Shown: one piece after another, positions 8,699 to 52,937 of the stretch
Layout of the letters: every line of letters starts with the position of its first letter
Position numbering within the stretch: the first letter of the stretch is position 1
Assembly (NCBI RefSeq): GCF_019915265.1
Contig: NZ_CP082780.1
Span: 1,922,001 to 1,986,000 of the forward strand
Origin: Bacillus aquiflavi
GTDB lineage: Bacteria > Bacillota > Bacilli > Bacillales > Cytobacillaceae
Length of the DNA: 64,000 nt
Direction of reading: 5' to 3'
Notes under the pieces: model-generated
Databases searched by the model: none
What the model saw: only the letters and a program-made list of their open reading frames with translations
Told to the model about the DNA's origin: nothing
Translations under genes and position numbers: made by a program

Positions 8699-8753
8699 GA
8701 TATCTCACCTCAAAAATTAATATTTTCTTAGCTGATTGTGCCGTTTTTTATGC

Positions 8754-9371: not shown

Positions 9372-9472
9372 CTCTATATGTTGATTTGAGCGTTAAAAAA
9401 CGATGTACTTTATCTTTATTGTTTTGAACAGTCTCATGACTTACCTGTTAGGAAACGATACAAAGCTTAGCC

Positions 9473-12221: not shown

Positions 12222-12310
12222 ATTAATCCCTTCCCTTTTTAATACGAAAAATAAAACTTTTTCTTAATCATAACATATTTGGTGATGAGCAATTAGGAAT
12301 TCTAGTAGTT

Positions 12311-12338
12311 TATACGATAATAAATATAAAAAGTTTCA
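12311..12338 (-). promoter_or_regulatory. SigW-type (ECF) promoter of yceG operon
   Basis: On the minus strand TGAAAC, a 16-base spacer rich in T, and CGTATA: an exact match to the ECF consensus used by SigW/SigX/SigM in Bacillus. It lies about 90 bases upstream of yceG. Confidence 0.75.
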
Positions 12339-12418
12339 TTTTTCTAAAAAAGATGCTCCTCACCTTTTATCTCGTCCAAGTATATAGTAAATTATCGAAT
12401 GATTGTAGGTGAAACGAG

Positions 12419-12676
12419 ATGAGATTTTTAAATAGAAGAAGTCTAAAAAATCAACTTGACCAAGCGCTTGATGACATCCAAGACGTAATGGTTTCTGAAC
12501 TGTTTATTTATATTGATTTATTGTTTTATGCACTTTTTTTTTTACGTTGTTACTTTCTACGTCAAAAAGAGTATTTCTTTTTCACCTGTAAAAAGTTTTT
12601 TTTCATCATTTATTTATTAAGTGTATTGCTATTTTTATTAATAAAAAAATGGTTTAAAGATTACCATTTGAAATAA
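12419..12676 (+). CDS. Doubtful small membrane protein frame
   Basis: An 85-codon frame with a possible GGTG ribosome site. The first 26 residues are charged and helix-like (RSLKNQLDQALDDIQDVM), then two hydrophobic stretches rich in Phe, Leu and Tyr follow, coded by T-rich DNA. Its 3' end overlaps the HAD gene on the other strand by 23 bases. I do not recognise it. It may be a real small membrane protein, or the N-terminal stub of a lost gene followed by random T-rich frame. Confidence 0.3.
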   Translation: MRFLNRRSLKNQLDQALDDIQDVMVSELFIYIDLLFYALFFLRCYFLRQKEYFFFTCKKFFFIIYLLSVLLFLLIKKWFKDYHLK

Positions 12677-13505: not shown

Positions 13506-13560
13506 TATTTTGGCTCCTTAAAGGTTGAATTAAACCACAACAAGTGTAGCTCATTTCTGG

Positions 13561-14619: not shown

Positions 14620-14631
14620 CTTTTTAACACC

Positions 14632-17152: not shown

Positions 17153-17208
17153 CCTTTTTTCTTTTAAGTAATACCATATGAATGTAAATTATCAGTTAAT
17201 TGATTGTA

Positions 17209-17237
17209 AAAAAGAATTGGCCGATTAAGCCAATTCT
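17209..17237 (-). terminator. Terminator of terC (distal copy)
   Basis: Stem AGAATTGGC / GCCAATTCT with a 7-base loop followed on the minus strand by six T. A second, T-less copy of the same stem lies at 17346-17371, with a degenerate repeat copy between them. Confidence 0.75.
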
Positions 17238-17372
17238 CAGACTATTGATCAAATTAACTTATGAATGCCTGTTTATTTGTACCTCAACTGACATTTTTTA
17301 TCAGTATGAGAGGAATAGACTCTTATATTAAGCTTGTCCCCAAGTGAGAATTGGCTATAAAGTCAATTCTCA
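17238..17372 (+). repeat. Degenerate terminator-linked repeat flanked by duplicated stem
   Basis: The segment following the distal terminator begins CAGACTATTGATCAAA, a decayed form of CAGACTGTTGACAAAC. At its far end (17346-17371) the stem GAGAATTG / CAATTCTC repeats the terminator arms. The same arrangement is seen at 18210-18406. Confidence 0.5.
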
Positions 17373-17394
17373 TCTTTTTCGCTAAAACTATATT

Positions 17395-18162
17395 TTATTC
17401 GCTTTCTACTGTTTTCTTTTTATTCATAAAATGGACAACAAACGTTGCTACGAACGTAAGTAGTAAAATAAGGAAGAAATAGATATGATCTAATTCAAAC
17501 CCTACAACGCTTAAAAGCATTTTAGCAGAGATAATTAAAATTAATATGTAAGCTGAAGTTTCAAGCTCTGGAACACGATCGATTAACTTTAAAAATACAC
17601 CCGCAATCCCCCGCATCATTAAAATTCCAAGCATACCTCCAAGTAATAGCACCCATACTTCCTGACTGACTCCAAATGCAGCTAAAACACTATCGACAGA
17701 GAAAGCAATATCCATTAACTCAACTGCAACAACCGTTCCCCAAAAAGTTCCAAACAATCGGACTAACAGACCATTTTGGTTGACACCCTCAACGTCATCC
17801 TCTTCTTCCTCGCCTTTTCGTTTATCAATGAAATATTTAATTGACAACCAGGCTAGGTAGCCGGCACCTAGTACTTTCACCCACCATAACTCGATTAAGT
17901 AAACACCAACTCCAATTGCAAGAAAGCGGAAAAAGTATGCTCCAATTAATCCGTAAAAAAGTGCTTTTCGGCGTTTTTTTTCAGGTAAATGTTTCACCAT
18001 TACAGCTAAAACAAGCGCGTTATCTGCTGATAATAATCCTTCTAATATGACTAATGAACCGATTAAGCCCCAGCTTACAGGGTCTGTTAAAACTTTAATC
18101 CACATATCCAAATCAAAAAATTGGGCATATGTGTTTAAAATTCCTTGTAATATTTCTGACAT
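17395..18162 (-). CDS. yceF: TerC family integral membrane protein (YceF)
   Basis: 255 residues with seven to eight hydrophobic segments. The two TerC signature helices with buried acidic residues are present: LEGLLSADNALVLAVMV near residue 40 and VVAVELMDIAFSVDSVLA near residue 145. A charged loop (KRKGEEEEDDVEG) lies between. TerC is the membrane partner of TerD; several family members (Alx, MeeF/MeeY) export Mn2+ and help metallate secreted enzymes, so manganese efflux is a reasonable role. In B. subtilis yceF is co-operonic with terD genes; here repeat units and terminator stems separate the two. Confidence 0.92.
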   Translation of the reverse strand: MSEILQGILNTYAQFFDLDMWIKVLTDPVSWGLIGSLVILEGLLSADNALVLAVMVKHLPEKKRRKALFYGLIGAYFFRFLAIGVGVYLIELWWVKVLGAGYLAWLSIKYFIDKRKGEEEEDDVEGVNQNGLLVRLFGTFWGTVVAVELMDIAFSVDSVLAAFGVSQEVWVLLLGGMLGILMMRGIAGVFLKLIDRVPELETSAYILILIISAKMLLSVVGFELDHIYFFLILLLTFVATFVVHFMNKKKTVESE

Positions 18163-18209
18163 TATTAATGTTCCTCCTAGGTATTAGCTTAAAATTCGTT
18201 TTTCGGGAG

Positions 18210-18233
18210 AAAGACCCGGTAAAACCGAGTCTT
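18210..18233 (-). terminator. Terminator stem of terD, distal copy
   Basis: Stem AAGACTCGG / CCGGGTCTT with loop TTTTA, then TTCTCC on the minus strand. A near-identical stem is repeated at 18383-18406 on the other side of a repeat unit. Confidence 0.6.
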
Positions 18234-18382
18234 TAGACTGTTGACAAATGCCCGTATTCTTCTTTGCTTGCACCTCGTTAAAGCCCCATGAACACCTGAT
18301 CTATTTATGCTTTCGCTTTAGTGCCACGTGCCTTGACTGTATCTCTTAGGCATTTGCTTCAAAATTGTTTGTCCACAATCCC
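18234..18382 (+). repeat. Terminator-linked repeat, single copy
   Basis: Starts TAGACTGTTGACAAATGCCC and keeps GTATTCTTC, CCCATGAAC, GTGCC and CCTTGACTG in the order found in the tandem array, ending GCAAAATTGTTTGTCCAC-like. It lies exactly between two copies of the terD terminator stem. Confidence 0.75.
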
Positions 18383-18406
18383 TAGACCCCGGTAAAACCG
18401 AGTCTT
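18383..18406 (-). terminator. Terminator stem of terD, gene-proximal copy
   Basis: AAGACTCGG / CCGGGGTCT around TTTTA, about 22 bases past the terD stop codon, but followed by AGGGATTG rather than a T tract, so it is probably inefficient. Confidence 0.5.
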
Positions 18407-18427
18407 AAAATTTAATCATTTTCATTA

Positions 18428-19009
18428 TTAACTAACTTGAAGGCCAAAATCAGTTGCTAATGCGGCTAATCCTCCACCATAGCCACTCCCAATTGCACTA
18501 AACTTCCATTCGTTGTTATGACGATATAATTCACCAACAACAAGCGCTGTTTCAATTGAGAAGTCCTCACCTAGATCATAACGAATCAGTTCTTCATTTG
18601 ATCCTCCATCCAAAATACGAACATATGCATTTGAAACTTGACCAAAGTTTTGATTCCGTGTTTCAGCATCATGTATCGTGATCGTAAAAGCAATTCTATG
18701 TACGTTCGCAGGAACAGCATTTAAATTAATTTTAATTTGTTCGTCATCGCCGTCGCCTTCCCCAGTTCGATTATCGCCTGCATGTACGACAGAACCGTTG
18801 CCTCCTTGGAGATTATTATAAAAAATAAAATCACTATCTGAGTTTACCTTACCGCTTTCATTAAGCAAAAATACTGATGAGTCTAAATCAAAATCATTTC
18901 CACCGTCATACTTATTAACATCCCATCCTAACCCAACAATTACATTCGTTAAACCGGGATTTGTTTTTGTTACATCTACTTTTTGTCCTTTTGCTAAACT
19001 AATAGCCAC
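18428..19009 (-). CDS. TerD family calcium-binding stress protein
   Basis: 193 residues with both calcium loops, [12 protein letters not shown] near residue 40 and [13 protein letters not shown] near residue 80, and the C-terminal [20 protein letters not shown]. It is very close to the TerD at 8120-8698, so the two probably arose by duplication. It is the first gene downstream of an ECF-type promoter at 19041-19069 and has a GGAGG ribosome site. Expected to act with TerC (17395-18162) in the stress response. The family call is secure. Confidence 0.93.
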
Positions 19010-39109: not shown

Positions 39110-39831
39110 GATAACACCTCCGTTTTTGATCATAATATTTTTTAAAAATAAAGGAAACCCCTTGATTATAAAATCATAGAGTTTCAACTTAAGAAGCTTA
39201 CTTTATAAAAATTAATATATAAGGAGGTTGAGCAACAAATGGAGAAGTCATTTAAATAGCTGTCATTTTATCTTTATGATTTTTTAAAGTATGATTGATC
39301 CAATCAATAAATTGCTATAAATCTTTATGTAATTTTCATTTCAGAAAAAGCAGTGCCAAATCCCCCCTGAGCTTACTTGAATTAAGTCAACTTGTTTTCT
39401 ATTAAAAACAGAGGAATACAGAGGATTCTGTTACATTTCGCTTAATTAAGATAAAAGATCTTTTTTTATTTATTAGAAATCGGTGGCAATTCGGACGATA
39501 ACATTATTTAACCATATACCAATGGTACGATTATAAGATTTTTTCTCAAACACCTACAAATAACAACTATTGTTTTCACCAGAAAAATCCTCCCTATCTA
39601 TTCATAAATAATCAAGCTAAGCATAATTTTTCTCATTTTATTAAAAATAAGTAGAACGATAGAACTATGAAAACGTTTATAAAAAATTTTAAAAGAAAGA
39701 ATTTAATAGACGAATTAACTAAATCAAACTGTAAATTTAAAATATTTTTGCTTAAATATGGTTTTTTTACTTTTTTTGTTTTAAAGTATAGAAGAATATT
39801 TTATTCACGAATAATTCGGAGGTGTTTTTTT
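39110..39831. other. Long AT-rich gap before the KAS III-like gene
   Basis: About 720 bases without a convincing gene. At 39222 an AAGGAGGTTGAGCAACAAATG start is followed by only six codons; a related start (GGAAGTTGACCAACAAATG) recurs at 41099. On the minus strand 39260-39330 a short remnant (QFIDWINHTLKNH) looks like the tail of a lost alpha/beta hydrolase-type protein. In-frame DNA upstream of the KAS III start at 39667-39831 has no ribosome site and reads as low-complexity Lys/Phe. Confidence 0.4.
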
Positions 39832-40815
39832 ATGTTCAAGATTGAGCAAATTTCAGTTTATCATCCTTCTACTAAACGAGACAACAATTATTATATTGAG
39901 CACTTTAGCCAAAAAGGGAAAAATGTAACACCAGTACTTGAAAAAACCGGCCGGAAAACACGCTATATTATTGAAAACACAGGAGAAAATAGCTTAACAA
40001 TGGCTATTAAAGCCGCTAAAAAAGCCTTATCAGCTGCTCATATTATGGCAAAAGACATCGATTTAATTATTTTCACCTCTTCAACTCCAGAATATTTATC
40101 TCCAACTAATGCATTGATGATTCAAAAAGCAATTGAAGGGAAAGAAGATACCCTTTGTTTTGACTTGAATGGGAACTGTATAGGTATGTTCATTGCTCTT
40201 GAACAAGCAACTAGAACCTTGCAAACGAACCCAAAAATGAAAAGAGCAATGATTATCGGTTCTGACTTCCTTAATCTGTTAGCATATCCTGAACATTTAA
40301 TAACTTATTCAATTTTTGGAGATGCCGCAGTTGCAATGATTATTGAGAAAGATATCTCATGCCTTAGCGGGATGATAGATGTTGCTTATGAAACAAATGG
40401 AGATTTTAAAGAGGAGATCGTCTATCCTGCACATGGCATGGCTAAATCTCTGCGACAACAAGCTGAGCATGATTATTTATACTGGGGACACTTTAGCGGT
40501 AGAGACAGTTTAAAGTTTGCAGAGAAATCAATTCGAGCTATGTTAAACAAGCATGGCCTATTACTTGATGACATTAAGGCATTTTGTTTATCTCAATTTA
40601 CTTTAGCCAATATTAAATTAATTCAAGAAAGCCTTCATTTACAAGACAAGCAGATCGTTTACATTGGAGATCAGTATGGTTACACAGGAACTAGCAGTCC
40701 GTTTCTCGCACTATATACCGCTATTGAAGCTAAACAAATTCAACGTGGAGATTACATCGTATTTTGGACTTTAGGCTCTGGTTACCAAACAGGTACATTG
40801 CTCTGGCGATATTAA
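39832..40815 (+). CDS. KAS III (FabH)-like acyltransferase with atypical active site
   Basis: 327 residues, thiolase fold. The start is the ATG nine bases after CGGAGGT; the open frame continues 55 codons upstream but is low-complexity there. The acyl cysteine is Cys116 in LNGNCIGMF. The His and Asn that make FabH decarboxylate malonyl-ACP seem to be missing: the HQAN region reads CLSQFTLAN, and the GNTSAAS region reads GYTGTSSPF. Such KAS III-like proteins often transfer acyl groups or join acyl chains without malonyl decarboxylation. It has no biosynthetic neighbours, so the product is unknown. Confidence 0.8.
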   Translation: MFKIEQISVYHPSTKRDNNYYIEHFSQKGKNVTPVLEKTGRKTRYIIENTGENSLTMAIKAAKKALSAAHIMAKDIDLIIFTSSTPEYLSPTNALMIQKAIEGKEDTLCFDLNGNCIGMFIALEQATRTLQTNPKMKRAMIIGSDFLNLLAYPEHLITYSIFGDAAVAMIIEKDISCLSGMIDVAYETNGDFKEEIVYPAHGMAKSLRQQAEHDYLYWGHFSGRDSLKFAEKSIRAMLNKHGLLLDDIKAFCLSQFTLANIKLIQESLHLQDKQIVYIGDQYGYTGTSSPFLALYTAIEAKQIQRGDYIVFWTLGSGYQTGTLLWRY

Positions 40816-41311: not shown

Positions 41312-42061
41312 TTGATATTTGATATGACTGATTATAATAGCAACATTAGGTCTCTAGCAGAATTTTTAGATTTAACTAAAGAAGAAATACAAGAGTTTGT
41401 TTTTGAAAGCACAGATGTAATGGATTTCTGAAGCTTTTAATATTGAAGATGAAAAGCTGTTGGACAAGGACGTAGAATTAGTTAGCCTCCATAGTACTAC
41501 CAGTATTGATAATTGCCAGTCAATTAAAGAGAAAGGAATAATTAACCTACAGGATACTGTATCACAAGAAACCCAATTACGGACTTATTTATTCAAATTA
41601 ATATTGACAAAAAGTGCATTTTATTTAAAGGGAATAAATTGGACATAGGTAAGAAAACTAATGGTTTTTATTTAAGTGAGGAAGATGAATATAGAAATCG
41701 TGTAATTCGAAAACTTTATGATGACTTTCAAGTTAATGGATTTTTTCATCATGAAAATATACTCACATACGGCGGTTATACTAAGGATAGACCGGAGATA
41801 CTTTGGGATTTGGCGAATTTTTTGCAGGATGAAAAGATTGAGCAAGATTGGGTTAAAGAAAAAAACAAAAAACATCATGTAATAAAATTTAAGCAACCTT
41901 TGAATTACTATAAATGGTTCACATTTGAGGTTGAATATGAGGATAATGATTATGGAATTACGAAAGACCCTTTAGAGTACTTACCTAGTAAGACAATTGA
42001 AGCTAAGGTAAAGAAATGGGTAATTCAGTACTCACTTTATATTCTTAAGGACGGCATATAC
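41312..42061 (+). pseudogene. Host hypothetical gene, left part, frameshifted and split by Tn3
   Basis: A TTG start after GGAGGGTG opens FDMTDYNSNIRSLAEFLDL. After a frameshift near 41425 the reading continues as SEAFNIEDEKLLDKDVELVS and LHSTTSIDNCQSIKEKGI. After a second shift near 41600 it continues as NIDKKCILFKGNKLDIG and YGGYTKDRPEILWDLANFL up to KDGIY. There the Tn3 left end (GGGGTACC) interrupts it. The remainder is found in frame at 52943-53053. The protein would be about 280 residues; I do not recognise the family. The two frameshifts show that it was probably already inactive, or contain sequencing errors. Confidence 0.75.
42057..42061 (+). repeat. Target site duplication TATAC, left
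   Basis: Five-base direct repeat TATAC abutting the left Tn3 end; its partner is at 52938-52942. Confidence 0.9.
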
Positions 42062-42099
42062 GGGGTACCGTCAGGAAAATGCGGATTTACAACGTTAAG
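42062..42099 (+). repeat. Tn3 left terminal inverted repeat (38 bp)
   Basis: Begins GGGGTACCGTCAGGAAAATG and ends CAACGTTAAG; identical as inverse complement to 52900-52937. Confidence 0.95.
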
Positions 42100-42261
42100 T
42101 ATATTTGTTTTGGTTAATCATTCTTACTCAATCAAATACAACTAGAACAAACGAATTAATGATACTAAAGACATGATACATTTTAGATAAATATTATTTT
42201 CTGACTATTCATTTAATTATGTATATATGATATATTTGGAAAAAAGCAGGGGGGTGATAGA

Positions 42262-42330
42262 ATGTTAGTAAAATCATTTGCAAAAGAAGAAAAGAAACTT
42301 GCTGTAGAAACTTGCTATGACTTTGACTAA
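42262..42330 (+). CDS. Putative RiPP precursor peptide (22 residues)
   Basis: An ATG eight bases after a GGGGGTGAT ribosome site encodes a 22-residue peptide. It starts MLVKSFAKEEKKLAVE, a charged leader-like helix, and ends ETCYDFD with a single Cys five residues from the C-terminus; two stop codons in a row (TAA TAG) follow. Short peptides with C-terminal cysteines are the substrates of DUF692/MNIO enzymes such as MbnB and TglH, and an MNIO gene lies three genes downstream on the same strand. A partial terminator between this gene and the next would leave the peptide more abundant than the enzymes, as usual for RiPP precursors. Too short for routine gene callers. Confidence 0.6.
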   Translation: MLVKSFAKEEKKLAVETCYDFD

Positions 42331-42338
42331 TAGGCAAT

Positions 42339-42390
42339 AAAACTTTATAAGGTTTGATGTCCTTTATTCATCATTCCTTATAAAGTTCTC
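42339..42390 (+). terminator. Attenuator-like hairpin between peptide gene and enzyme genes
   Basis: AACTTTATAAGG and CCTTATAAAGTT form a 12-base stem, extended by GATG/CATC within the loop, followed by CTCTTT. It lies 10 bases after the peptide stop and just before the AGGAGGAG site of the next gene. The weak T tract suggests partial termination or 3'-end protection. Confidence 0.65.
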
Positions 42391-42407
42391 TTTAGGAGGA
42401 GAACAAA

Positions 42408-42809
42408 ATGGATATATTGCAAGTTAATGACAAAAAGTATATCTTTAATCATTATGTAATGAATCATATAGAGAAATTTAGATATCCCTTAGAAGCGAAT
42501 CATATTTTTTTTAGGGGTATTTCCAAAAAGTTATTAAAATATATATTTTATATCTATTATAATAATAATTGTAAACAAGATAGGTATTTCTATCTGGGTA
42601 TTATTTTATATTTGCAGTCTAGACATGAATATCCAGATTGCTTGGAAGAACTTTTGGATTTTTTTGTATCGCAATTTTTAAATGATAAAGAAGGTTTGTT
42701 AATATACTTAAAACATAGAGAAGGTTTTTATTTTTACTACATTGAAGATAATAACTGTAAAAAATATATTTTTTTAATAAGAATTCGGAGGCAAAGGAGT
42801 TTTCACTAA
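42408..42809 (+). CDS. Unknown 133-residue protein of the MNIO cluster (possible partner/recognition protein)
   Basis: 133 residues, rich in Tyr, Phe and Lys, no membrane helix and no signal peptide. An AGGAGGAG site lies seven bases before the ATG. The N-terminus (QVNDKKYIFNHYVMNHIEKF) is followed by Tyr-rich segments and a C-terminal HREGFYFYYIED. MNIO enzymes normally work with a partner that binds the leader (MbnC, TglI, DUF2063 proteins), and by position this gene is the candidate, but I see no motif of those families. It precedes the membrane protein gene by six bases. Confidence 0.65.
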   Translation: MDILQVNDKKYIFNHYVMNHIEKFRYPLEANHIFFRGISKKLLKYIFYIYYNNNCKQDRYFYLGIILYLQSRHEYPDCLEELLDFFVSQFLNDKEGLLIYLKHREGFYFYYIEDNNCKKYIFLIRIRRQRSFH

Positions 42810-42815
42810 GTAGGG

Positions 42816-43934
42816 ATGTCAGATTATTATATGAAATTTAAATGGCTATACATATATTACTTAGTTTGTATTTTAACAAAAGGACTAGCCTATTCATACG
42901 CTACCACAAAAATAATATTACTTAGTGAAATAAATATTTTTTTGATTTTACTTCTAAGCTTAGTAGTAGAATTTATTGTCTTTATCGAAGTTTCATATTT
43001 AAAAATAATATCAAACGCTAGTATAAAGAGTATTAGTTTCGGTGGTTCATTTTTATTATTACTTCTAATCATAGTTGAGTTTAATAATGATGTGGTGCAT
43101 TTAATCGTTCATTTTACATTTATAACATTTTTATTTTCTAATTTATTATTAAAGTTAGAATCTAATATTTTGAATACATCTAATAATTATAAAATGGGTT
43201 TAACAAATATCACAGTACTTAATAATCTTTCTAAACTCTTAGGCTTTTCTATGGGAGCAATATTCTATAACTTAAGTATAGAGGCCTTTGCGCTTTTTAT
43301 AATTTTCATATTATTATTTTCCTCACTATTCAAAATTCCTAATAAAAATTTAAAAGAAAAAGAGAATGAAGTTTTTGAACTAGATTATATCAAGAAAAAC
43401 AAATTAGCTGACAAACAGTATTTACTAATTCTAGCATTGTTAGGTTCAATCACTGTTTATTGGATTCCGGTATTTGTTGATGTTTTAGAAAAGGAAAACT
43501 TATTGAGGTACTCTTTTATAATATTTCTTCTACCGGGAATTTTTTCAATTAGTTTTTTATCTATTATTAAGAAAAAACCTCAATTTCTCTTAAAAAAGTA
43601 CGATTTATATTTTTATTTTTTTTTTTTATTTTTTTTTTTTGTTAGTTTCTATTTTAACTTTATCTTCTTATCCTTTTTTCTAATAAACCTTATTTTTATT
43701 TTAAGCATAAGTATTTCTATAGATATTCGTGCAGTTTTCTTAAAATTAAATTCTCACGCAGATAAAAAGTATCTATTACAGTTATTTAAGGTGACACCTT
43801 CATTCATGATTTTTGCTTTTACTTTATTATCATTTAGTACGAAACATACACCAGAAATTACTTTAGGTTTAAATGCCCTAGCAGTTTTAATCTATTCCGT
43901 AAAAAAGGAGAAAGCACATGAACATGAATATTAA
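42816..43934 (+). CDS. Polytopic membrane protein, MFS-like probable exporter
   Basis: 372 residues with ten to twelve hydrophobic segments and short basic loops (LKEKENEVFELDYIKKNKLAD in the centre separates two halves), the layout of a major facilitator. No family motif (such as GxxxDrxGRR) is clear, so it is a divergent member. Between the putative precursor/partner genes and the MNIO gene, export of a peptide product is the likely task. Two T12 tracts separated by one A at 43616-43640 code for a Phe-rich helix and may be prone to slippage. Start choice is uncertain: the best SD (GGAGGCAAAGGAG) is rather far from the ATG. Confidence 0.7.
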   Translation: MSDYYMKFKWLYIYYLVCILTKGLAYSYATTKIILLSEINIFLILLLSLVVEFIVFIEVSYLKIISNASIKSISFGGSFLLLLLIIVEFNNDVVHLIVHFTFITFLFSNLLLKLESNILNTSNNYKMGLTNITVLNNLSKLLGFSMGAIFYNLSIEAFALFIIFILLFSSLFKIPNKNLKEKENEVFELDYIKKNKLADKQYLLILALLGSITVYWIPVFVDVLEKENLLRYSFIIFLLPGIFSISFLSIIKKKPQFLLKKYDLYFYFFFLFFFFVSFYFNFIFLSFFLINLIFILSISISIDIRAVFLKLNSHADKKYLLQLFKVTPSFMIFAFTLLSFSTKHTPEITLGLNALAVLIYSVKKEKAHEHEY

Positions 43935-44751
43935 GATAGGTTTATGTTATAGAAATTGGTTACATGAGAAGTACTTAAACCAAATACTAGACATCGTAGA
44001 TATAATTGAAATAATGCCTGATATAACTGATGTTGAGGAAATTAAATTAATTAAAAAGAGTTGCGAAGAAAAGAATATTGACTTGAGTATTCATTCACTC
44101 CGTTCAAATATAGGTTCTGTTGAAGGAATACATAAAGATGAAACAGATAAATACTTTTTTGTTAATTATTATTGTGACTCAGTATATTTTTCCGATCACA
44201 TGGCATTTTCTCATATTCTAGGTAATTACTTATCATCAGTAAACCAATTGATTTACAATGAAGAAAACATCAGAGTAGTCCAAAAAAATATTGCTCAATT
44301 AGAACATAAATTTAGTGATACTCCTGTATTAATTGAAAATATAACTCAAAATAATTTAAGAAAGGATAGTACGATGAGAGAATCAGATTTTTGGCATTCT
44401 GTTTTTCAGAATCTTGGATCTAATGTTGGGATAATGTTGGATATTACTAATATGTAGGTTACCTCAAAAAACAATAACATTGATTTCTTTTCCTATATTA
44501 AAGGCTTTCCACTACATAAAGTAGAATGTATACATTTATCTGGTTATGAAATAATGGAAAATAACAGGTTGCAAGATTCTCACTTAAGTGATATAGATGA
44601 AAATATCTTTGCAATACTTAGAGAAATTTTACCGCAAACAAATGCTAAATATGTTTTATTAGAAAGAGATTTTAATGTTTTTAATTTTAATGATATATCA
44701 AATGAAATAGCTAAAATAAAAGAAGCAGTTAACACTAGTGTATTGCTATAA
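43918..44751 (+). pseudogene. DUF692 / MNIO (MbnB/TglH-type) iron enzyme with one in-frame amber codon
   Basis: The frame codes for 277 residues, the family's normal length, if the TAG at 44455-44457 (codon 180) is read through. Before it: Glu31 in IIEIMPD, His59 in SIHSLRS, Asp93-His94 in FSDHMAFS, Glu140-Asn141 in VLIENITQ and Asp175 in MLDITNM. After it: YIKGFPLHKVECIHLSGY with His206, and LLERDFN. These are the metal-binding motifs of MNIO enzymes, which modify peptide cysteines using a di- or tri-iron centre. At codon 180 the family has a Tyr (LDITNMY-V), so a single C/T-to-G change explains the stop. Otherwise undamaged. The AGGAG site is good and the start overlaps the membrane gene by 17 bases. 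Confidence 0.8.
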
Positions 44752-44787
44752 GGTGCTCTGCCAGCAAACAGTATTTACAACGTTAAG
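44752..44787 (+). repeat. Degenerate internal Tn3-type end
   Basis: Immediately after the MNIO stop, GGTGCTCTGCCAGCAAAC and then ATTTACAACGTTAAG match the left terminal repeat in order (GGGGTACCGTCAGGAAAATG, ATTTACAACGTTAAG), exactly over the inner 15 bases. It has the orientation of a left end, so the MNIO cluster is bracketed by two left-type ends. Confidence 0.6.
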
Positions 44788-44800
44788 AATATTTCAATAT

Positions 44801-44847
44801 AAAAATCCCAATCTCCTAGTAATATAAGTTAGAGATGGGTTTTTTAT
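44801..44847 (+). terminator. Terminator of the MNIO cluster
   Basis: AAAAATCCCAATCTC and GAGATGGGTTTTTT form a stem with a G-T pair and a T tract, 50 bases past the MNIO stop codon. Confidence 0.8.
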
Positions 44848-45249
44848 TTATTCAACAAACTTTAGCTACATACAGAATTTTTTTTCACCGTATTTATCGT
44901 ATTTTTTGATACAAAATGTCTGAATTATAACCTCGAAAAAATATATTCAATAGTTTTCAATATATAGATTTTTTTTTCTTTTGAATTAGAACTACTTTCT
45001 ATGTAGAGCAACTCTAACGGCTTTAGAGTAGAGCCAAAGTGAAGTGTTGCTTGCAATTGACTGTAATGCTCGATTCTAAGTATTCGTATTATATAGAAAA
45101 ATTGTACTTGCGTAGGGGAGCCGTATGTTATTATTGGTTGCCTCTGAAAACGACAGCTTCATCCTTTAAGACCAATCCTACCTACTGATACTCCATGTCA
45201 AGTCCTTAATAAATATAACTAATTATCTTGATATACTTGTGTACGATGA
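44848..45249. other. Gap between MNIO cluster and thrS terminator
   Basis: About 400 bases with no convincing frame. Inverted repeats occur at 44999-45024 (CTCTAACGGCTTTAGAG-like), but I can assign nothing. Confidence 0.4.
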
Positions 45250-45283
45250 TAAAAAGTGCATTCCATCAATCTTTTTGATGGAG
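45250..45283 (-). terminator. Displaced terminator of the transposon thrS
   Basis: Minus strand TCCATCAA / TTGATGGA around AAAGA, then ATGCACTTTTT. It originally lay about 80 bases past the thrS stop codon and is now separated from it by the IS630 copy. Confidence 0.65.
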
Positions 45284-45362
45284 GTACTTTAGATATGCTC
45301 CCATCCTGGAATAACTAAATTTAATCAACCCCTGTATTTCTTAAATAATCATCTTCTTTCTA

Positions 45363-46504
45363 TATAAGTTGAATAAAAGGTTCGACCAATCGAAAAACGG
45401 GTATAGAATTATAAAATACCACGAAAGGGCTGGTGAACCGTGAACGTTCAAAGTCAGATCGAGGTACTACGGGAAGCGATGAAGAACGCAAAGAATCCCC
45501 GTCTTTATGAACGTTATCAAGCTGTTTATCTGAATTTAATTGGCTATGAAAGACAAGAAATTGCTGAAATTATTAATCGACGTCGGCAAACTGTCGGTAT
45601 ATATATCAAGTCATACAAGGGAAATTCACTTGAAGGACTTGAACTGGGGCATTCTCCTGGTAGACCTTGTAAATTATCAAAAGAACAGGAAAATGCTCTA
45701 GTTGAAGTTATATCAACGAAAGTTCCCGCAGATGTCGGTTTTACAGCAAGGTACAACTGGACTTTGGCACTTGCTTCCGAATATGTGAAACACGAATGGG
45801 ACATTGACTACAGTCTACGTGGGATGTCCAATGTTTTACATGCGCTTGGTTTAAGCTACACTCGCCCAACTTATACATTAGAAACAGCAGATTCTGAAAA
45901 ACAGAAAAAATTTGTTGAAGGGACCTTCCCCTCTCTAAAAAAAAGCTTTTAAACGAAGAAATAGACCATATCCTTTTTGAAGATGAATCCATGATCCGTG
46001 ACTATCAGGCTATTCAGTGTACATGGTTTATCAAAGGAAAGCAGCGAAACATCCCGACGTACGGACAACACAGGGGTATGAAACTAATCGGCACATTGAA
46101 TTATGAAACAGGTGAAGTAGTCTGTACAGAGGAAGAAAAATATGACGCCGTTGCTTTTCTTGAATTTTTAAAGAAAATCTTGAAGCATTATCCTTTAGGC
46201 AAGATCGTTATGATTTTAGATAATGCCCGTATTCATCATGCCAAGCTTCTCCGTCCCTTCCTGAAGGAAAATAAAGATCGGCTTGAACTCGTATTCCTAC
46301 CTCCATACAGCCCCAAACTCAATCTGATTGAAGGATTATGGAAATGGCTAAAAGAATCCGTGATTAATAATGTCTACTTCCCAAACGTTCAGAAAATAGC
46401 ACTGAAAGTCAGAGTGTTTATCAATGATATTAATCAACATCCGCAAGCAATCATTGATCGGCTTTGTGTACGGCTGTGAGTTAGAATCATAAATTCAACT
46501 TATA
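45363..46504 (+). mobile_element. IS630-family insertion sequence
   Basis: Two overlapping-frame transposase ORFs are flanked by inverted repeats TATAAGTTGAAT (left 45363, right ending 46504) and by TA on each side (45361-45362 and 46505-46506), the TA target preference of IS630/Tc1-mariner elements. It inserted in the last codons of thrS. Confidence 0.88.
45440..46479 (+). CDS. IS630 transposase, two ORFs joined by probable -1 frameshift
   Basis: The first frame (45440-45952, 170 codons) carries the DNA-binding half: AEIINRRRQTVGIYIKSY helix-turn-helix and ADVGFTARYNWTLALASEYV. The second (to 46479) carries the DDE half: FEDESMIRDY, MILDNARIHHAK and PYSPKLNLIEGLWKWLKE. They meet at the run CTAAAAAAAAG, where the A-AAA-AAG heptamer allows a -1 shift just before the first stop, giving about 345 residues (KKLLNEEIDHILFEDES across the join). 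Programmed frameshifting is known in this family, so the gene is probably functional. Confidence 0.85.
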
Positions 46505-48423
46505 TAGATACTACGATCTTTTATTTTTTGTACAATTTTCTTTTTAAAATTCTCAAATAGGACACTTTCTGATTGTTGATGTCCGTATTTTCTAACATTT
46601 ACTGCTTCTTCTTTCACTTCATTATCCCCTAGCACCAGCATATATGGGATCTTTTGCATCTGTGCTTCTCTAATTTTGTACCCTAGTTTTTCATTACTTT
46701 CGTCAATTTTCACTCTTACCCCTAATTGTTTCAGTTCCGATTGAATCTTTAAAGAGTAATCCAAGTGAACTTGTGAGACAGGGATAATTTGTACTTGTGT
46801 CGGTGCAAGCCAAACAGGAAAAGCTCCTGCAAAATGTTCGATTAAAATACCAAAGAAACGATCAATTGATCCAAAAATAGCACGATGGATAACAACTGGT
46901 CGAACCTTTTCGTTATTTTCATTGATATAAGTCAAATCAAATTTTTCGGGCTTTTGAAAATCAAGTTGTATTGTTGCACATTGATGACTCCGTTTTAATG
47001 CATCTTTTATATGAAAATCAATTTTTGGCCCATAAAACGCTCCATCGCCCTCATTTAACTGATAGTTAATTCCTAAATCATCAAGTACATTTTTTAACGC
47101 TCCTTCAGAAAGCTCCCAAAGATTATCATCACCTAATGAATCTTCTGGACGAGTTGAAAGCTCCACTGAGTAATCGAAACCAAAAGTGCTATACAATTGA
47201 TCAATTAGGTGAAAGACCTGCTTAATTTCACTCTCAATTTGATCCTTACGAACAAAGATGTGAGCATCATCTTGGCAAAATGTACGAACCCGAAGCAGTC
47301 CATTTAATGCACCACTGTATTCATGACGATGAACTTGCCCGAACTCTGCAATACGAATAGGTAAATCTCGATAGGAGTAATGGTTGTTTTTAAAAATTAA
47401 CATGTGTCCAGGACAATTCATTGGTTTCATAGCAAATTTTGTATGCTCCACTTCGGAAAAGTACATATGTTCATGATAATGGTCCCAATGACCTGATTTC
47501 TCCCATAATCTTTGATTCATCATAAATGGAGTACGAACCTCATCATAATAGGCATCACTTTGAAGCTGACGAGAAAAGTTTTCTAACTCGTTTCTTATAA
47601 TTTGTCCCTTCGGTAAATAAAACGGCATTCCTGGTGCTTCTTCGGAAAACATAAATAACTCTAATTGTTTCCCTAACTTACGGTGATCTCTTTTTGCTGC
47701 TTCTTCTAAGAAATTTATGTGCTCAATTAAATCTTTTTTCTTTTTAAAAGCCACTCCATAAACTCGTTGAAGAACTTCGTTTTGACTATCACCTCGCCAA
47801 TAAGCTCCTGATACACGATTTAATTTGAATGCTTTTATTAAGCCAGTAGATGGAAGGTGAGGACCACGGCAAAGATCAATAAACTCACCTTGTTGATATA
47901 GACTTATTTTTTCACTTTTAGGAATGTCTTTTAATATTTCTAACTTGAATGGTTCAGCTTTTTCTTCAAATAACTTTTCAGCTTCTTCATAAGAAACTTC
48001 AAATCGTTTGATTTCTAGATTTTCGTTTATAATGTTTTCCATTTCTTTTTCAATAGCAAGTAAGCCCTCGGAAGTTAAACTATGTTCTAGTTTCAAATCA
48101 TAGTAAAACCCATCTTCAATGACTGGTCCTATACCCAATTTCGCATTACCGTAAAGTCTTTTCACCGCCTGTGCCAATACATGCGCTGATGAATGCCTTA
48201 ACACTTGCAATCCTTCTTCTGAATCTAGAGTTAAAATAGAGAGTTTCGCATTTTTTTCTAGCTTATAGTTTAAATCAACCAGTTGTTCATCTGCTTTCCC
48301 TACAACTGCATTCTTTCTTAGACTTGAACTAATGGACTCTGCTACACTTTCCACTGTAATGCCTTTCGGGAATTCTTTTATTTTCCCATCTAGAAATTGA
48401 ATTTTAATTAATTGTTCACTCAT
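46495..48423 (-). CDS. thrS: Threonyl-tRNA synthetase on the transposon (ThrS/ThrZ type)
   Basis: About 642 residues, complete: TGS domain (IKIQFLDGKIKEFPKG), editing domain with HSSAHVLAQAVKRLYG and DLCRGPHLPS, class II core with MKPMNCPGHMLIF, RHEYSGALNGLLRVR, DDAHIFVR and IHRAIFGSIDRFFGIL, and the anticodon-binding domain (WLAPTQVQIIPVS). Zinc ligands Cys, His, His are in place. The start is the ATG about ten bases after AAAGGAG, 15 codons inside the longest frame. Two tandem ACC-specifier T-boxes precede it. An IS630 insertion altered the last codons: the original stop after RSI is replaced by three IR-encoded residues. As transposon cargo it is probably a second, accessory ThrRS. Confidence 0.95.
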   Translation of the reverse strand: MSEQLIKIQFLDGKIKEFPKGITVESVAESISSSLRKNAVVGKADEQLVDLNYKLEKNAKLSILTLDSEEGLQVLRHSSAHVLAQAVKRLYGNAKLGIGPVIEDGFYYDLKLEHSLTSEGLLAIEKEMENIINENLEIKRFEVSYEEAEKLFEEKAEPFKLEILKDIPKSEKISLYQQGEFIDLCRGPHLPSTGLIKAFKLNRVSGAYWRGDSQNEVLQRVYGVAFKKKKDLIEHINFLEEAAKRDHRKLGKQLELFMFSEEAPGMPFYLPKGQIIRNELENFSRQLQSDAYYDEVRTPFMMNQRLWEKSGHWDHYHEHMYFSEVEHTKFAMKPMNCPGHMLIFKNNHYSYRDLPIRIAEFGQVHRHEYSGALNGLLRVRTFCQDDAHIFVRKDQIESEIKQVFHLIDQLYSTFGFDYSVELSTRPEDSLGDDNLWELSEGALKNVLDDLGINYQLNEGDGAFYGPKIDFHIKDALKRSHQCATIQLDFQKPEKFDLTYINENNEKVRPVVIHRAIFGSIDRFFGILIEHFAGAFPVWLAPTQVQIIPVSQVHLDYSLKIQSELKQLGVRVKIDESNEKLGYKIREAQMQKIPYMLVLGDNEVKEEAVNVRKYGHQQSESVLFENFKKKIVQKIKDRSIYIS

Positions 48424-48454
48424 AACTATAAACACTCCTTTAAAGTAATAAAAA

Positions 48455-48700
48455 AAAAACACACTCATCCCTTAACAAGGGACGAGTGCGTTATAACCCG
48501 TGGTTCCACCCAATTTCCCATAAGCTAAAAAATAACTTATGGCTCTGGTGCCGTAACGTAGCATAGACGATATTGGATACTTTTGTTCACCAATACAGCT
48601 TCAAGGTGGTAAATTATTTCCTAAGTTAGGAAGATCACAGCTTATCCTTCCCTCTCTGAAAACCGTAAAAATAATTCATGTCCTTTTCATCGCTTTAATC
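48455..48700 (-). promoter_or_regulatory. T-box leader 2 (gene-proximal), threonine specific
   Basis: Minus strand: stem I with AGAGAGGGAAGGA, specifier ACC (48608-48610), T-box core GGGTGGAACCACG (48499-48511) and terminator CACTCGTCCC/GGGATGAGTG followed by T9. Uncharged tRNA-Thr would stabilise the antiterminator and allow thrS transcription. Confidence 0.92.
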
Positions 48701-48717
48701 TTATATTTTATGATTAA

Positions 48718-48965
48718 AACAAAAAACGCACTCATCCCTCAATAAGGGACGAGTGCGTTATACTCGTGGTTCCACCCAATTTCCCATAAGCTAAAAAGAT
48801 AGCTTACAGCTCTGGTGCTGTAACGTAGCATAAACGGTATTGGATAATTAATTCCCCAATACAGCTCAAAGGCGGTAAGATACTTCCCTGCGTTAGGAAG
48901 ATTTCAGCTTTCCTTCCCTCTCTGGAAACCGTAAAAAGTAACTCATGTCCTTATCAGTGCTATTT
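48718..48965 (-). promoter_or_regulatory. T-box leader 1 (promoter-proximal), threonine specific
   Basis: A second complete copy, about 80 percent like the first by eye: stem I AGAGAGGGAAGGA, specifier ACC (48874-48876), core GGGTGGAACCACG (48765-48777) and terminator GCACTCGTCCC/GGGATGAGTGC with T6. Tandem leaders make induction more stringent; B. subtilis thrZ has three. Confidence 0.92.
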
Positions 48966-49176
48966 AAATTCAAATAATTCATTTAATTATTTTACATACT
49001 ACAATAAATTTCTATAAATAGCAACACTTATTTTGGGCTTCTTACAATTTTGTTCATTAAACAGGGGCCCTATAAGACAAGGAATAACTCTATTCAGTGC
49101 TGAATGAAACACCATCTAAAAACATTTGGGTACGGTGGGTTGACAGTTTCGTTCATATCAATGGAATAAGGAATGA

Positions 49177-49752
49177 TTATTTGTTCTCTTCCGATAGCTT
49201 TCTATATAATGAAGCTCTAGACACATTTGTAATTTCACAAATTTGATTTACAGTCATACCTCCTTCTTTATATAGCTTCACTGCATAATTCATTCCTGCG
49301 TGATTTTTATGATATTTCTTTATTCGGCCTTTAAACTTTCCTTCTTTCTTTGCTAGCTCAATCCCTTCACGTTGACGCATACGAATAAGATCTCGCTCTA
49401 ATTGGTTAACACCAGCCATTACCGTAATTAAGAATTGACTGTATGGATTATCTTCTGATAAATCTAGCCATGTATCCTTGAGTGATTTTAAGCTTGCCTT
49501 TTTACTTCGTATTAAATCAATCAATTCAAACAAATCCTGCGTACTTCGAGTGATCCGAGTTAAGTCTGTAACATAAATGATATCACCTTCTTGTAAATTA
49601 CCTAACATTTTTTGAAGTTGTTCACGATCTTTTGTAGTACCAGAAACTTTTTCTTCAAAAATAAGATCCATGCCGATTTCGTTCAGTTGTTGAAATTGCC
49701 TTGAAGGATTCTGGCTAGTCGAACTGACACGTATATAACCAATTTTCCGCAA
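49177..49752 (-). CDS. tnpR: Serine recombinase, Tn3-type resolvase
   Basis: About 191 residues. The start is taken as the TTG after GAGGTGAT, giving RKIGYIRVSSTSQNPSRQ with the catalytic Ser in VSS. YVTDLTRITRSTQDLFELI and LERDLIRMRQREGIELAK follow, and a C-terminal helix-turn-helix (MTVNQICEITNVSRASLYR) completes a resolvase of normal length. It resolves transposition cointegrates at the res site between it and tnpA. Divergent from the transposase, as in Tn3/Tn1546-like elements. Confidence 0.93.
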   Translation of the reverse strand: MRKIGYIRVSSTSQNPSRQFQQLNEIGMDLIFEEKVSGTTKDREQLQKMLGNLQEGDIIYVTDLTRITRSTQDLFELIDLIRSKKASLKSLKDTWLDLSEDNPYSQFLITVMAGVNQLERDLIRMRQREGIELAKKEGKFKGRIKKYHKNHAGMNYAVKLYKEGGMTVNQICEITNVSRASLYRKLSEENK

Positions 49753-49824
49753 AATATCACCTCGTTTTTGAGACAAGTCTTATGAGACGCTCTTAACTAT
49801 GATTTTATCAGTCTCCTACACTTG

Positions 49825-49850
49825 TATCAATAGAGTACACTCTATTGATA
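49825..49850. promoter_or_regulatory. res-like palindrome between tnpR and tnpA
   Basis: TATCAATAGAGT and ACTCTATTGATA are perfect inverted arms around an AC centre, the size and position expected for a res subsite; it would also overlap the divergent promoters and allow autoregulation by resolvase. Confidence 0.75.
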
Positions 49851-49899
49851 TATAATTGAATTAATTAACTGAATAATTACAGAAATGAGATGATACTTT

Positions 49900-52863
49900 A
49901 TGAAAATTGCGAGAGGTAGAGAATTGCTTACACCGGAACAGCGACAGGCTCTTATGCAAATTCCTGAAGATGAGTGGGTGCTAGGAACCTACTACACTTT
50001 TTCCAAACGAGATTTAGAAATTATAAATAAGAGAAGGAGAGAAGAAAACCGTTTAGGGTTCGCTGTTCAATTAGCTGTTCTTCGGTATCCTGGTTGGCCA
50101 TACACTCATATCAAAAACATCCCGGGTTCAGTCATACATTATATATCGAAACAAATCGGTGCCACTCCATCTTCGCTTAGTCTTTATCCTCAAAGAGAAA
50201 ATACACTTTGGGATCATTTGAAAGAAATTCGTAGTGAATACGACTTTCTAACTTTTACTCTAAAAGAATATCGAATGACATTTAAGCACCTTCATCAATT
50301 GGCTTTGGAAAATGGTGATGCTATTCATCTATTACATGAATGCATAGATTTTCTAAGAAAAAACAAAATCATATTACCTGCTTTCACTACACTTGAAAGA
50401 ATGGTGTGGGAGGCAAGGGCAATGGCTGAAAGGAAGCTATTTAATACGGTTAGTCAATCTCTAACAAATGAGCAAAAAGAAAAGCTTGAAGAGATCATTA
50501 CTTCGCAGCATTCATCCGAATCCAATAAAACTATATTGGGTTGGTTAAAGGAACCACCGGGTCATCCATCACCCGAAACATTTCTAAAAGTAATAGAACG
50601 ACTAGAATACATACGAGGAATGGAATTAGAAACAGTAAAAATTAGTCATTTGCATCGCAAACGCCTGTTACAGCTATCTCGCTTAGGTTCAAGATATGAG
50701 CCTTATGCATTCCGTGACTTTCAAGAAAATAAACGTTACTCGATATTAACCGTCTATTTATTACATCTTACTCAGGAGTTAACGGATAAAGCTTTTGAAA
50801 TTCATGACAGACAAATACTCAGTCTGTTATCAAAAGGCCGTAAGGCTCAAGAGGAAATTCAGAAACAAAACGGTAAAAAGCTGAATGAGAAAGTTATACA
50901 CTTTACGAACATCGGACAAGCTTTAATCAAAGCAAAAGTGGAAAAATTAGACGTTTTTGAGGTTTTAGAATCCGTTATTGAATGGAATTCTTTTGTTTCT
51001 TCGGTGGAAGAAGCTCAGGAGCTTGCACGTCCTGCTGACTATGATTATTTAGACTTACTACAAAAACGATTTTATTCACTTAGAAAATATACGCCGACGC
51101 TATTAAGGGTATGGGAATTTCATTCTACAAAGGCAAATGAACCACTTTTGCAAGCTGTAGAGATTATCCGAGGAATGAATGAATCTGGGAAGCGAAAAGT
51201 GCCCGATGAATCACCTGTAGACTTTATCTCAAAACGTTGGAAAAAACACTTATATGAGGATGACGGTACAATTAATCGTCATTATTATGAAATGGCCGTC
51301 TTAACAGAACTAAGGGAACATGTTCGGGCTGGTGATGTTTCCATTGCGGGCAGTAGAGAATATAGAGATTTTGAGGAATATTTGTTTTCAGAGGATACAT
51401 GGAATCAAACGAAGGGAGATACGAGGTTATCAGTTAGTTTATCATTCGAAGACTATATGATAGAGAGAACCAGCAGCCTTAATGAAAGATTAAAGTGGTT
51501 ATCTGCCAATTTCAACAAGTTAGATGGAGTTTCTCTTGAAAAAGGAAAGCTATCAATTTCACGATTAGAAAAAGATGTTCCAGAAGAAGCAAAGAAATTT
51601 AGTGCAAGCCTTTATCAGATGTTGCCAAGAATAAAATTAACCGATCTACTTATGGATGTTGCTCATATAACCGGATTTCATGAGCAATTTACTCATGCTT
51701 CTAATAATCGAAAACCAGATAAAGAAGAAACAATCATTATCATGGCTGCCCTTTTAGGAATGGGGATGAATATTGGATTGAGTAAAATGGCTGAAGCCAC
51801 ACACGGACTTACATATAAGCAACTAGCCAATGTGTCTCAATGGCGCATGTATGAAGACGCAATGAATAAAGCCCAAGCAGTATTAGTGGATTTTCATCAC
51901 AAATTACAATTATCTTCTTATTGGGGAGATGGCACAACATCTTCGTCGGATGGAATGAGAATGCAGTTAGGGGTTTCTTCGCTACATGCAGATGCAAATC
52001 CACATTACGGAACTGGAAAAGGAGCCACCATCTATCGATTTACAAGTGATCAATTTTCTTCTTACTACACAAAGATTATTCATACTAATTCACGAGATGC
52101 GATTCATGTTTTGGATGGTTTGTTGCATCATGAGACGGATCTCAACATAGAAGAGCATTATACAGACACTGCTGGTTACACAGACCAAATTTTCGGATTG
52201 ACCCATTTATTAGGATTTAAATTTGCTCCAAGGATAAGAGATCTTTCGGACTCAAAATTATTTACAATAGATAAAGCAAGTGAGTATTCAAAACTAGAAG
52301 CCATTTTACGTGGACAAATAAATACAAAGATCATTAAAGAAAATTATGAGGATGTTTTGCGATTAGCTCATTCAATAAGAGAAGGAACAGTCTCAGCATC
52401 CCTTATTATGGGTAAACTGGGTTCTTATTCAAGAAAAAACAGCTTAGCTACAGCCTTACGTGAGATGGGCCGAATAGAAAAAACGATCTTTATTTTAAAT
52501 TACATTTCGGATGAATCATTAAGAAGAAAAATACAAAAAGGATTGAATAAAGGAGAAGCCATGAATGGACTGGCAAGAGCTATTTTCTTTGGAAAACAAG
52601 GAGAGCTTAGGGAACGAACCATACAGCATCAAATGCAAAGGGCCAGTGCTTTAAACATAATTATCAATGCCATCAGTATCTGGAATACCCTACATCTAAC
52701 AAAAGCAGTTGAATATCAAAAACGGACAGGTCGTTTTAATGAAGAATTATTGCACCATATGTCACCACTAGGTTGGGAACATATCAATTTACTAGGAGAA
52801 TACCATTTTAATTTGGAGAAAATGGTCTCGTTAGATTCTTTAAGACCACTGAAAATTTCTTAA
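49900..52863 (+). CDS. tnpA: Tn3-family transposase
   Basis: 987 residues, uninterrupted and of family length. N-terminal DUF4158-type DNA-binding region (RGRELLTPEQRQALMQIPED), then the long helical middle, then the DDE catalytic part: Asp in SYWGDGTTSSSDG, Asp in HYTDTAGYTDQIFG and Glu in FGKQGELRERTI. C-terminal HHMSPLGWEHINLLGEYHF is typical. It performs replicative transposition between the 38-bp ends. An intact frame and perfect ends imply that the element may still be mobile. Confidence 0.96.
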   Translation: MKIARGRELLTPEQRQALMQIPEDEWVLGTYYTFSKRDLEIINKRRREENRLGFAVQLAVLRYPGWPYTHIKNIPGSVIHYISKQIGATPSSLSLYPQRENTLWDHLKEIRSEYDFLTFTLKEYRMTFKHLHQLALENGDAIHLLHECIDFLRKNKIILPAFTTLERMVWEARAMAERKLFNTVSQSLTNEQKEKLEEIITSQHSSESNKTILGWLKEPPGHPSPETFLKVIERLEYIRGMELETVKISHLHRKRLLQLSRLGSRYEPYAFRDFQENKRYSILTVYLLHLTQELTDKAFEIHDRQILSLLSKGRKAQEEIQKQNGKKLNEKVIHFTNIGQALIKAKVEKLDVFEVLESVIEWNSFVSSVEEAQELARPADYDYLDLLQKRFYSLRKYTPTLLRVWEFHSTKANEPLLQAVEIIRGMNESGKRKVPDESPVDFISKRWKKHLYEDDGTINRHYYEMAVLTELREHVRAGDVSIAGSREYRDFEEYLFSEDTWNQTKGDTRLSVSLSFEDYMIERTSSLNERLKWLSANFNKLDGVSLEKGKLSISRLEKDVPEEAKKFSASLYQMLPRIKLTDLLMDVAHITGFHEQFTHASNNRKPDKEETIIIMAALLGMGMNIGLSKMAEATHGLTYKQLANVSQWRMYEDAMNKAQAVLVDFHHKLQLSSYWGDGTTSSSDGMRMQLGVSSLHADANPHYGTGKGATIYRFTSDQFSSYYTKIIHTNSRDAIHVLDGLLHHETDLNIEEHYTDTAGYTDQIFGLTHLLGFKFAPRIRDLSDSKLFTIDKASEYSKLEAILRGQINTKIIKENYEDVLRLAHSIREGTVSASLIMGKLGSYSRKNSLATALREMGRIEKTIFILNYISDESLRRKIQKGLNKGEAMNGLARAIFFGKQGELRERTIQHQMQRASALNIIINAISIWNTLHLTKAVEYQKRTGRFNEELLHHMSPLGWEHINLLGEYHFNLEKMVSLDSLRPLKIS

Positions 52864-52899
52864 CGTTGTTAAAAACAGGGGAATCGTCTTGAAAATGGG

Positions 52900-52937
52900 C
52901 TTAACGTTGTAAATCCGCATTTTCCTGACGGTACCCC
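52900..52937 (-). repeat. Tn3 right terminal inverted repeat (38 bp)
   Basis: Inverse complement of 42062-42099 without mismatch. An extra CTTAACGTTGT at 52859-52869, at the tnpA stop, repeats its inner end. Confidence 0.95.

Follow-up and report, generated by a model that had tools for sequence, protein, structure and literature searches.

The window, a 64,000-nucleotide stretch of Bacillus aquiflavi DNA (positions 1,922,001–1,986,000 of a single 3,806,094-base contig), contains a Tn3-family transposon with two cargos. We think it probable that the left cargo is a broken four-gene operon, predicted to make a modified peptide with the help of a DUF692-type iron enzyme (MNIO), and that the second cargo, a threonyl-tRNA synthetase (ThrRS) gene, travels as a likely independent passenger and not as a self-resistance gene.

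The peptide operon in the window and in other Bacilli

On the + strand, the left cargo reads, in order, 22-codon peptide, 133-residue open reading frame (ORF), 372-residue membrane protein and MNIO gene (Table 1). A preliminary description of this DNA had recognised the four genes as a co-directional block and as an MNIO peptide cluster. Order and strand stand, and homologues of the set do cluster elsewhere: peptide, protein of about 140 residues, major facilitator superfamily (MFS)-type protein and MNIO are found in unchanged order across several lineages of Bacilli, among them Fictibacillus, Mesobacillus and genomes G550 and G1211. What does not stand is the integrity of the block, since the MNIO gene carries a TAG and the 133-residue ORF is frameshifted.

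The peptides share the motif [E/D/A]TCY and are mostly 20–22 residues long. The operon of Fictibacillus macauensis has two tandem peptides with ends ETCYD and that of Mesobacillus subterraneus a peptide with the end ETCYK, and the peptides of genomes G550 and G1211 contain ATCYDW and ETCYDW, respectively. Five peptides could be aligned, with M, V, K, KK, A and TCY common to all; the scan looked for TCY, while position and KK-x-A spacing are independent of the scan criterion. A hairpin is found 3' of the peptide in all five operons folded (z from −3.1 to −6.5), and in each case none of 200 shuffled sequences was as stable. In genome G618, a peptide with two ETCYD motifs, the partner gene and most of the MFS gene lie at one contig end, and the end of the MFS gene and MNIO lie on another contig; this peptide (L076, 5208–5339) possibly holds two cores. 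Genome G1218 has the peptide, partner and MFS genes, with an MNIO match covering residues 1–73 only. A short precursor beside MNIO, conserved between clusters, is the arrangement by which clusters for ribosomally synthesized and post-translationally modified peptides (RiPPs) are recognised, and it is present here. By sequence, the four genes appear to be a genuine, rare MNIO-RiPP family. We did not find this family of TCY mini-peptides in print.

With the stop read as X, PF05114 spans the whole window MNIO (43918–44751; residues 7–271, 1.1e-45), and no second match to it was found in the same genome. The curated NCBIfam subfamilies all stayed under their cut-offs (score/cut-off in bits: BufB 118/310, HvfB 101/360, ApyH 70/400, ChrH 42/600, MbnB 31/325). 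The small partner protein matched no Pfam family and gave a single, chance-level match in NCBIfam. A fold model of its relative P0003 showed a weak match over the whole length to MbnC (7fc0_C). The partner family is rare, with nine proteins at E ≤ 1e-3, including the window's own and P0003, in a search that reaches only relatives with short exact words in common.

Lesions in the window copy

Judged from its reading frames, the window copy of the operon looks inactive. The preliminary description took the DUF692 gene as working, but it is not one open frame: an in-frame TAG stands at codon 180, after which the frame resumes to 44751. An alignment of six MNIOs has 70 invariant columns; 22 of them fall after this stop and include His, Asp and Glu residues some of which we take to be iron ligands. 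Because the MNIO stops at codon 180, the modified product is not expected in this genome. The C-terminus of the 133-residue ORF is altered by a frameshift relative to P0003 (143 aa; 97% identical over 92% of the query), which is encoded on a different contig, of 138,514 bp. The protein collection yielded five matches, none of them a near-identical full-length MNIO, and the 179-residue form makes up one cluster with two member sequences and one listed contig. This picture would mildly favour a real MNIO lesion over a sequencing error.

Distribution of the transporter and apparent loss of MNIO

At the level of the order, the transporter profile matched 10 of 397 genomes at E ≤ 1e-3, and five weak ones were dropped. 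At E ≤ 1e-10 it matched 4 of 398 genomes in the class, and 4/108, 2/226 and 5/41 in the families of G901, G618 and G550, respectively; the genome sets of order, class and families overlap. Thirteen genomes carry a strong transporter: G000, G405 and G086 (the latter two being the Fictibacillus and Mesobacillus records), G550, G1211, G1218, G204, G453, G618, G901, G956, G983 and G989. This count excludes the distant G1061, whose 14-kb locus contains no MNIO.

MNIO is whole in five of the 13 (G405, G086, G550, G1211 and G618) and broken or not found in eight. A stop interrupts it in the window copy, it is truncated in G204 and in G1218 (for the latter, the search covered the 14-kb locus only), and it was not found genome-wide in G453, G901, G956, G983 and G989, several of the genomes being drafts. 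Of these eight genomes, five have a complete or almost complete transporter (window, G1218, G901, G956, G983); the G453 gene is fragmented, that of G989 is short, and a contig end truncates that of G204. The TCY peptide was found in three of them, the window, G1218 and G901. That 8 of the 13 strong-transporter genomes have a damaged MNIO or none that was found suggests recurrent loss of the enzyme. Loci L075, L077, L078 and L079 (G901, G983, G956 and G989) hold orphan transporters in genomes with no MNIO match; L075 keeps its upstream TCY peptide.

We also observed a two-gene transposase module (by eye, a split DDE integrase-like gene and an AAA ATPase) adjoining the G550 operon on its left (L038, 4505–6549). 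Plasmids carry DUF692 genes too, in 235 records including 72 from Escherichia; all are less than 60% identical to the query.

The transposon and its probable assembly

Membership of the Tn3 family, as proposed in the preliminary description, is borne out by the 38-bp inverted repeats, identical at 38/38 positions, by the 5-bp TATAC duplication on both flanks and by the tnpA and tnpR profiles. A scan of the 3.8-Mb genome allowing up to three mismatches detected no 38-bp end besides the transposon's own two. Some match to the element was found in 415 of 72,556 plasmid records, and in none of the 72,556 is at least 80% of it covered at one place. The best-ranked records cover 35% of the element, corresponding to the tnpR–tnpA part and the left end. 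These DNA matches start near 49157, and the tnpR–tnpA span (about 49157–52937) is 90.4–92.9% identical among the 60 matches listed. Tn3 elements of Bacillales and enterococci with the same 38-bp ends and divergent tnpR and tnpA, a group that we take to be Tn1546-like, differ in cargo: they carry spore germination genes, dfrE/thyX or transporters, whereas the window element carries the MNIO block and ThrRS.

Two complete relatives have the order left end, cargo, tnpR, tnpA. The Heyndrickxia oleronia element carries spore germination genes as cargo; in that of Lysinibacillus irui, the cargo includes a metallo-hydrolase, a transporter and a LysR regulator. Because the two hold different cargo at the same place, changing cargo between the left end and tnpR is ordinary in this group. 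The Lysinibacillus irui cargo is flanked on both sides by the transposon end, in inverted copies (L086, 301 and 4102), and resembles a cassette of its own.

A conserved terminator stretch lies just inside the left end of the complete relatives (L085, L086), and beside ends in L019 and L020 too; the sequence read at the latter two loci has no annotated Tn3 transposase. In the window it sits not at the current left end but at 44773–44861, attached to a repeat that has lost its outer part. The MNIO frame ends 21 bp before this fossil end, which was absent from the preliminary description. The simplest reading is that an older element, holding ThrRS, tnpR and tnpA, would have had its left end at about 44773, and that the MNIO block and a new left end were later added outside it. 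The new end is likely a copy of the element's own, because both current ends carry ACC where the four relatives read carry AGC. With the fossil end separating them, the two cargos were likely acquired at different times. One observation cautions against reading too much into this history: L086 has an internal end copy (34/38, in opposite orientation) between its cargo and tnpR, so other routes of cargo gain exist in this Tn3 group.

The threonyl-tRNA synthetase and its T-boxes

A full ThrRS gene had been placed between the peptide block and tnpR. The TIGR00418 score of 796 bits agrees with this, except that the last few codons are supplied by an IS630-type insertion. The insertion lies between the peptide block and ThrRS, and its end falls in the ThrRS stop region and replaces these codons only. 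Two tandem T-box leaders, not noted before, precede the gene; both exceed the RF00230 gathering score of 93 and contain the T-box motif. Compared with its own genome, the transposon ThrRS (100% to itself) has a paralogue of 81% identity at 1828699 and a copy of 54% at 2606134. The 81% paralogue also has two T-boxes. The 54% copy, with no T-box reaching the gathering score, adjoins infC-, rplT-, dnaI- and dnaB-like genes (by eye), and we label it the housekeeping enzyme.

ACC occupies the specifier position (by eye) in 13 of 13 leaders printed, and the T-box motif is present in 12. The T-box scan took 15 of the 29 ThrRS loci fetched from other genomes; each of these same-clade loci has at least one T-box and 10 have two or three, 31 in total. 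Same-clade, T-box-controlled thrS genes were found on chromosomes and on plasmids, the plasmid copies having two T-boxes in Bacillus badius and Priestia megaterium and one in a B. amyloliquefaciens record. The transposon ThrRS thus appears to belong to the clade of second, T-box-controlled ThrRS of Bacillales, a clade drawn by similarity ranking and not from a tree. It has the two T-boxes and ACC specifier of the comparison enzyme with tandem T-boxes, which we take to be thrZ of Bacillus subtilis, and the same ranking puts the two in one clade; it differs in lying on a transposon, in having Lys at the Leu489 position and in taking its last codons from the IS630 end.

Gly463 (E. coli numbering), a residue at which a change gives obafluorin/borrelidin resistance, is kept in the transposon copy and at every one of the 37 loci read, which represent 34 distinct genes (three were fetched twice; L050, with a misfit pattern, was not counted). 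At the Leu489 position, the 34 genes have Met in 31, Leu in two and Lys only in the transposon copy. Met at this position makes the second-ThrRS group of Bacillales similar to ObaO, the immune enzyme of obafluorin producers. In the accessible part of PMC11252418, Leu489 is called strictly conserved in ThrRS proteins and is one of the two residues changed in ObaO; Gly463 to Ser confers resistance, whereas L489M confers none. The same source describes ObaO as having Ser for Gly463, where the transposon ThrRS keeps Gly; the likeness between them is that of an extra ThrRS near a biosynthetic locus.

The transposon ThrRS, used as a tblastn query, gave no match in the operon and transporter loci searched (14 + 12 overlapping loci, each 2.7–19.7 kb long). 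At the 29 ThrRS loci in other genomes, the 1.5 kb on either side contain no tnpA or tnpR match, and neither these flanks nor the plasmid search, with its best rows at 35% coverage, revealed a related Tn3 element bearing ThrRS without MNIO. Gene neighbourhoods were inspected in three of the 29 plasmid records that matched thrS. On the Priestia megaterium plasmid NZ_CP071468.1 (L017, 7709–11882), the two-T-box thrS adjoins genes for a ketoacyl-ACP synthase III, a lysophospholipid acyltransferase-like protein and fabZ; for ThrRS-linked biosynthesis, this locus is a better place to look than the window.

Relation to known MNIO clusters

The operon resembles the MNIO RiPP clusters of methanobactin (MbnA/B/C), TglH, bufferin (BufB), ApyH and ChrH in its PF05114 enzyme, adjoining short precursor, small second protein and transporter. 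It differs in its mostly 20–22-residue precursor with a TCY core, in reaching no curated subfamily cut-off and in a small protein with no match above chance level in Pfam or NCBIfam. Nitrilobacillins (pes cluster, Peribacillus simplex) likewise come from an MNIO peptide cluster of Bacillus relatives with a transporter and a partner gene. As described in the accessible part of PMC13060819, that cluster has an HExxH oxygenase, an asparagine-synthetase-like nitrile synthetase, M16 peptidases and a C-terminal R(V/T)DN, none of which is in the four-gene block. The biphenomycin-like pbs cluster shares an MNIO, a partner of the RiPP recognition element (RRE) type and an MFS transporter; the accessible part of PMC12257519 lists an FHAFRF core, an arginase, a B12 radical SAM enzyme and a protease, again absent from the block.

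Other features of the window

The transposon insertion splits an ORF, whose left piece (41639–42056) has no Pfam or NCBIfam match and whose remainder lies to the right of 52937. A ketoacyl-ACP synthase III-like gene is located at 39667–40815, 1.2 kb left of the transposon. The stretch 8120–19009 encodes several proteins that by eye look TerD-like (tellurite/stress type), next to neighbours without assigned role.

Table 1. Features of the transposon, in window coordinates
Feature	Position	Strand	Evidence
Left inverted repeat (IRL)	42062..42099	+	38 bp, 38/38 identical to IRR; TATAC at 42057–42061
Predicted precursor peptide gene, 22 codons, MLVKSFAKEEKKLAVETCYDFD	42262..42330	+	alignable with the peptides encoded at the corresponding position in Fictibacillus, Mesobacillus and G550
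Hairpin between peptide and downstream genes	42336..42392	+	inverted repeat; 80-nt stretch −24 kcal/mol, z −5.3
Putative MNIO partner protein gene, 133-aa ORF, frame shifted near 3' end	42408..42809	+	136–145 aa relatives in other operons
MFS-fold membrane transporter, 372 aa	42816..43934	+	MFS fold in fold test
MNIO (DUF692, PF05114) gene to in-frame TAG, codon 180	43918..44457	+	PF05114
Remaining MNIO homology past stop	44458..44751	+	22/70 invariant columns
Probable fossil left end of older element	44773..44861	+	inner 15 bp of 38-bp repeat (44773–44787) and terminator stretch
IS630-type insertion, split transposase ORFs 45440–45952 and 45991–46479	about 45359..46508	+	terminal inverted repeats; DDE_3 and HTH_33 domains
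Threonyl-tRNA synthetase, second-type, ThrZ-like clade	46495..48468	-	TIGR00418, 796 bits against cut-off 384
T-box leader, proximal	48475..48699	-	RF00230, 111.6 bits; ACC at specifier (by eye)
T-box leader, distal	48742..48966	-	RF00230, 105.7 bits; ACC at specifier
tnpR resolvase	49177..49776	-	Pfam Resolvase PF00239, 1.1e-37
tnpA Tn3-family transposase	49900..52863	+	NCBIfam NF033527, 1002.7 bits against cut-off 500
Right inverted repeat (IRR)	52900..52937	-	38 bp; TATAC directly after

Discussion

In an intact operon, the hairpin behind the peptide gene would leave the short peptide, with its Lys-rich front and TCY core, in excess over the downstream products. The protein of about 140 residues may present the peptide to the MNIO iron enzyme in the way that MbnC serves MbnB, and the enzyme would oxidise the core; oxidation of the Cys in TCY is the likeliest chemistry. 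The MFS protein would export the product or protect the producer. For the ThrRS, uncharged tRNA-Thr, arising from threonine shortage or a ThrRS inhibitor, would switch on expression through the two tandem T-boxes.

A wider proposal, which we put forward tentatively, is that these operons define a new MNIO class. Precursors of mostly 20–22 residues would have a Cys-Tyr core oxidised by the MNIO with an MbnC-like partner, and a dedicated MFS pump would export the product. The class would be spread among Bacilli by transposons and would switch from producer to non-producer, the enzyme being lost repeatedly and the pump (in some genomes also the peptide) kept, as if the pump alone gave immunity. 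The counts lower the probability of this wider proposal somewhat, since the peptide persists in only 3/8 and a whole pump in 5/8 of the genomes lacking an intact MNIO.

The ThrRS may also have been selected as cargo in its own right, an inducible spare that protects against foreign inhibitors of the borrelidin or obafluorin type or against threonine shortage. This is possible, though it falls somewhat short of being probable. An intact ThrRS with its own two T-boxes sits on a mobile element, genes of the same clade occur on Bacillus badius and Priestia plasmids, and the Lys at the Leu489 position could be read in the same direction; Gly463, however, is unchanged, and the same chromosome already encodes the 81% paralogue with its two T-boxes. 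Such a role is compatible with an independent passenger and would give a reason why it was retained.

A reading of the whole left block as unselected debris, captured by chance during transposition and containing a peptide ORF that encodes no precursor, is unlikely. Two of its four genes have lesions, the block is AT-rich (G+C 0.249 against 0.365 for tnpA), and in other genomes, too, MNIO is damaged or was not found. The peptide, however, is conserved across lineages in which the other proteins are about 25–63% identical, the hairpin follows it in every case folded, and intact operons exist elsewhere. The window's single copy, for its part, may have reached the transposon by chance.

Very unlikely, finally, is the self-resistance role put forward in the preliminary description, in which the operon product inhibits ThrRS and the transposon ThrRS is an immune copy induced through its T-boxes upon tRNA-Thr uncharging: the two cargos share one element, T-box control suits induction by an inhibitor, the usual Met or Leu at a residue changed in ObaO (accessible part of PMC11252418) is replaced by Lys, and Thr is present in the peptide core, but the operon loci searched elsewhere contain no ThrRS match, the resistance residue Gly463 is unchanged, L489M confers no resistance in the same source, the fossil end separates the cargos, T-boxes, often tandem, are ordinary in this ThrRS clade on chromosomes and plasmids alike, and with MNIO broken nothing here should need resisting. 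The mere presence of a ThrRS next to a biosynthetic locus does not amount to evidence of self-resistance.

The value of the broken operon on this transposon lies in its family and the pattern of loss, not in the window copy itself. The operon is a compact test case for MNIO enzymes, with a 20-residue substrate, one likely partner, one pump and intact natural copies in Bacilli, and possibly a new peptide modification. If recurrent enzyme loss with retention of the pump is true, cheating and immunity in peptide natural products would become directly testable.

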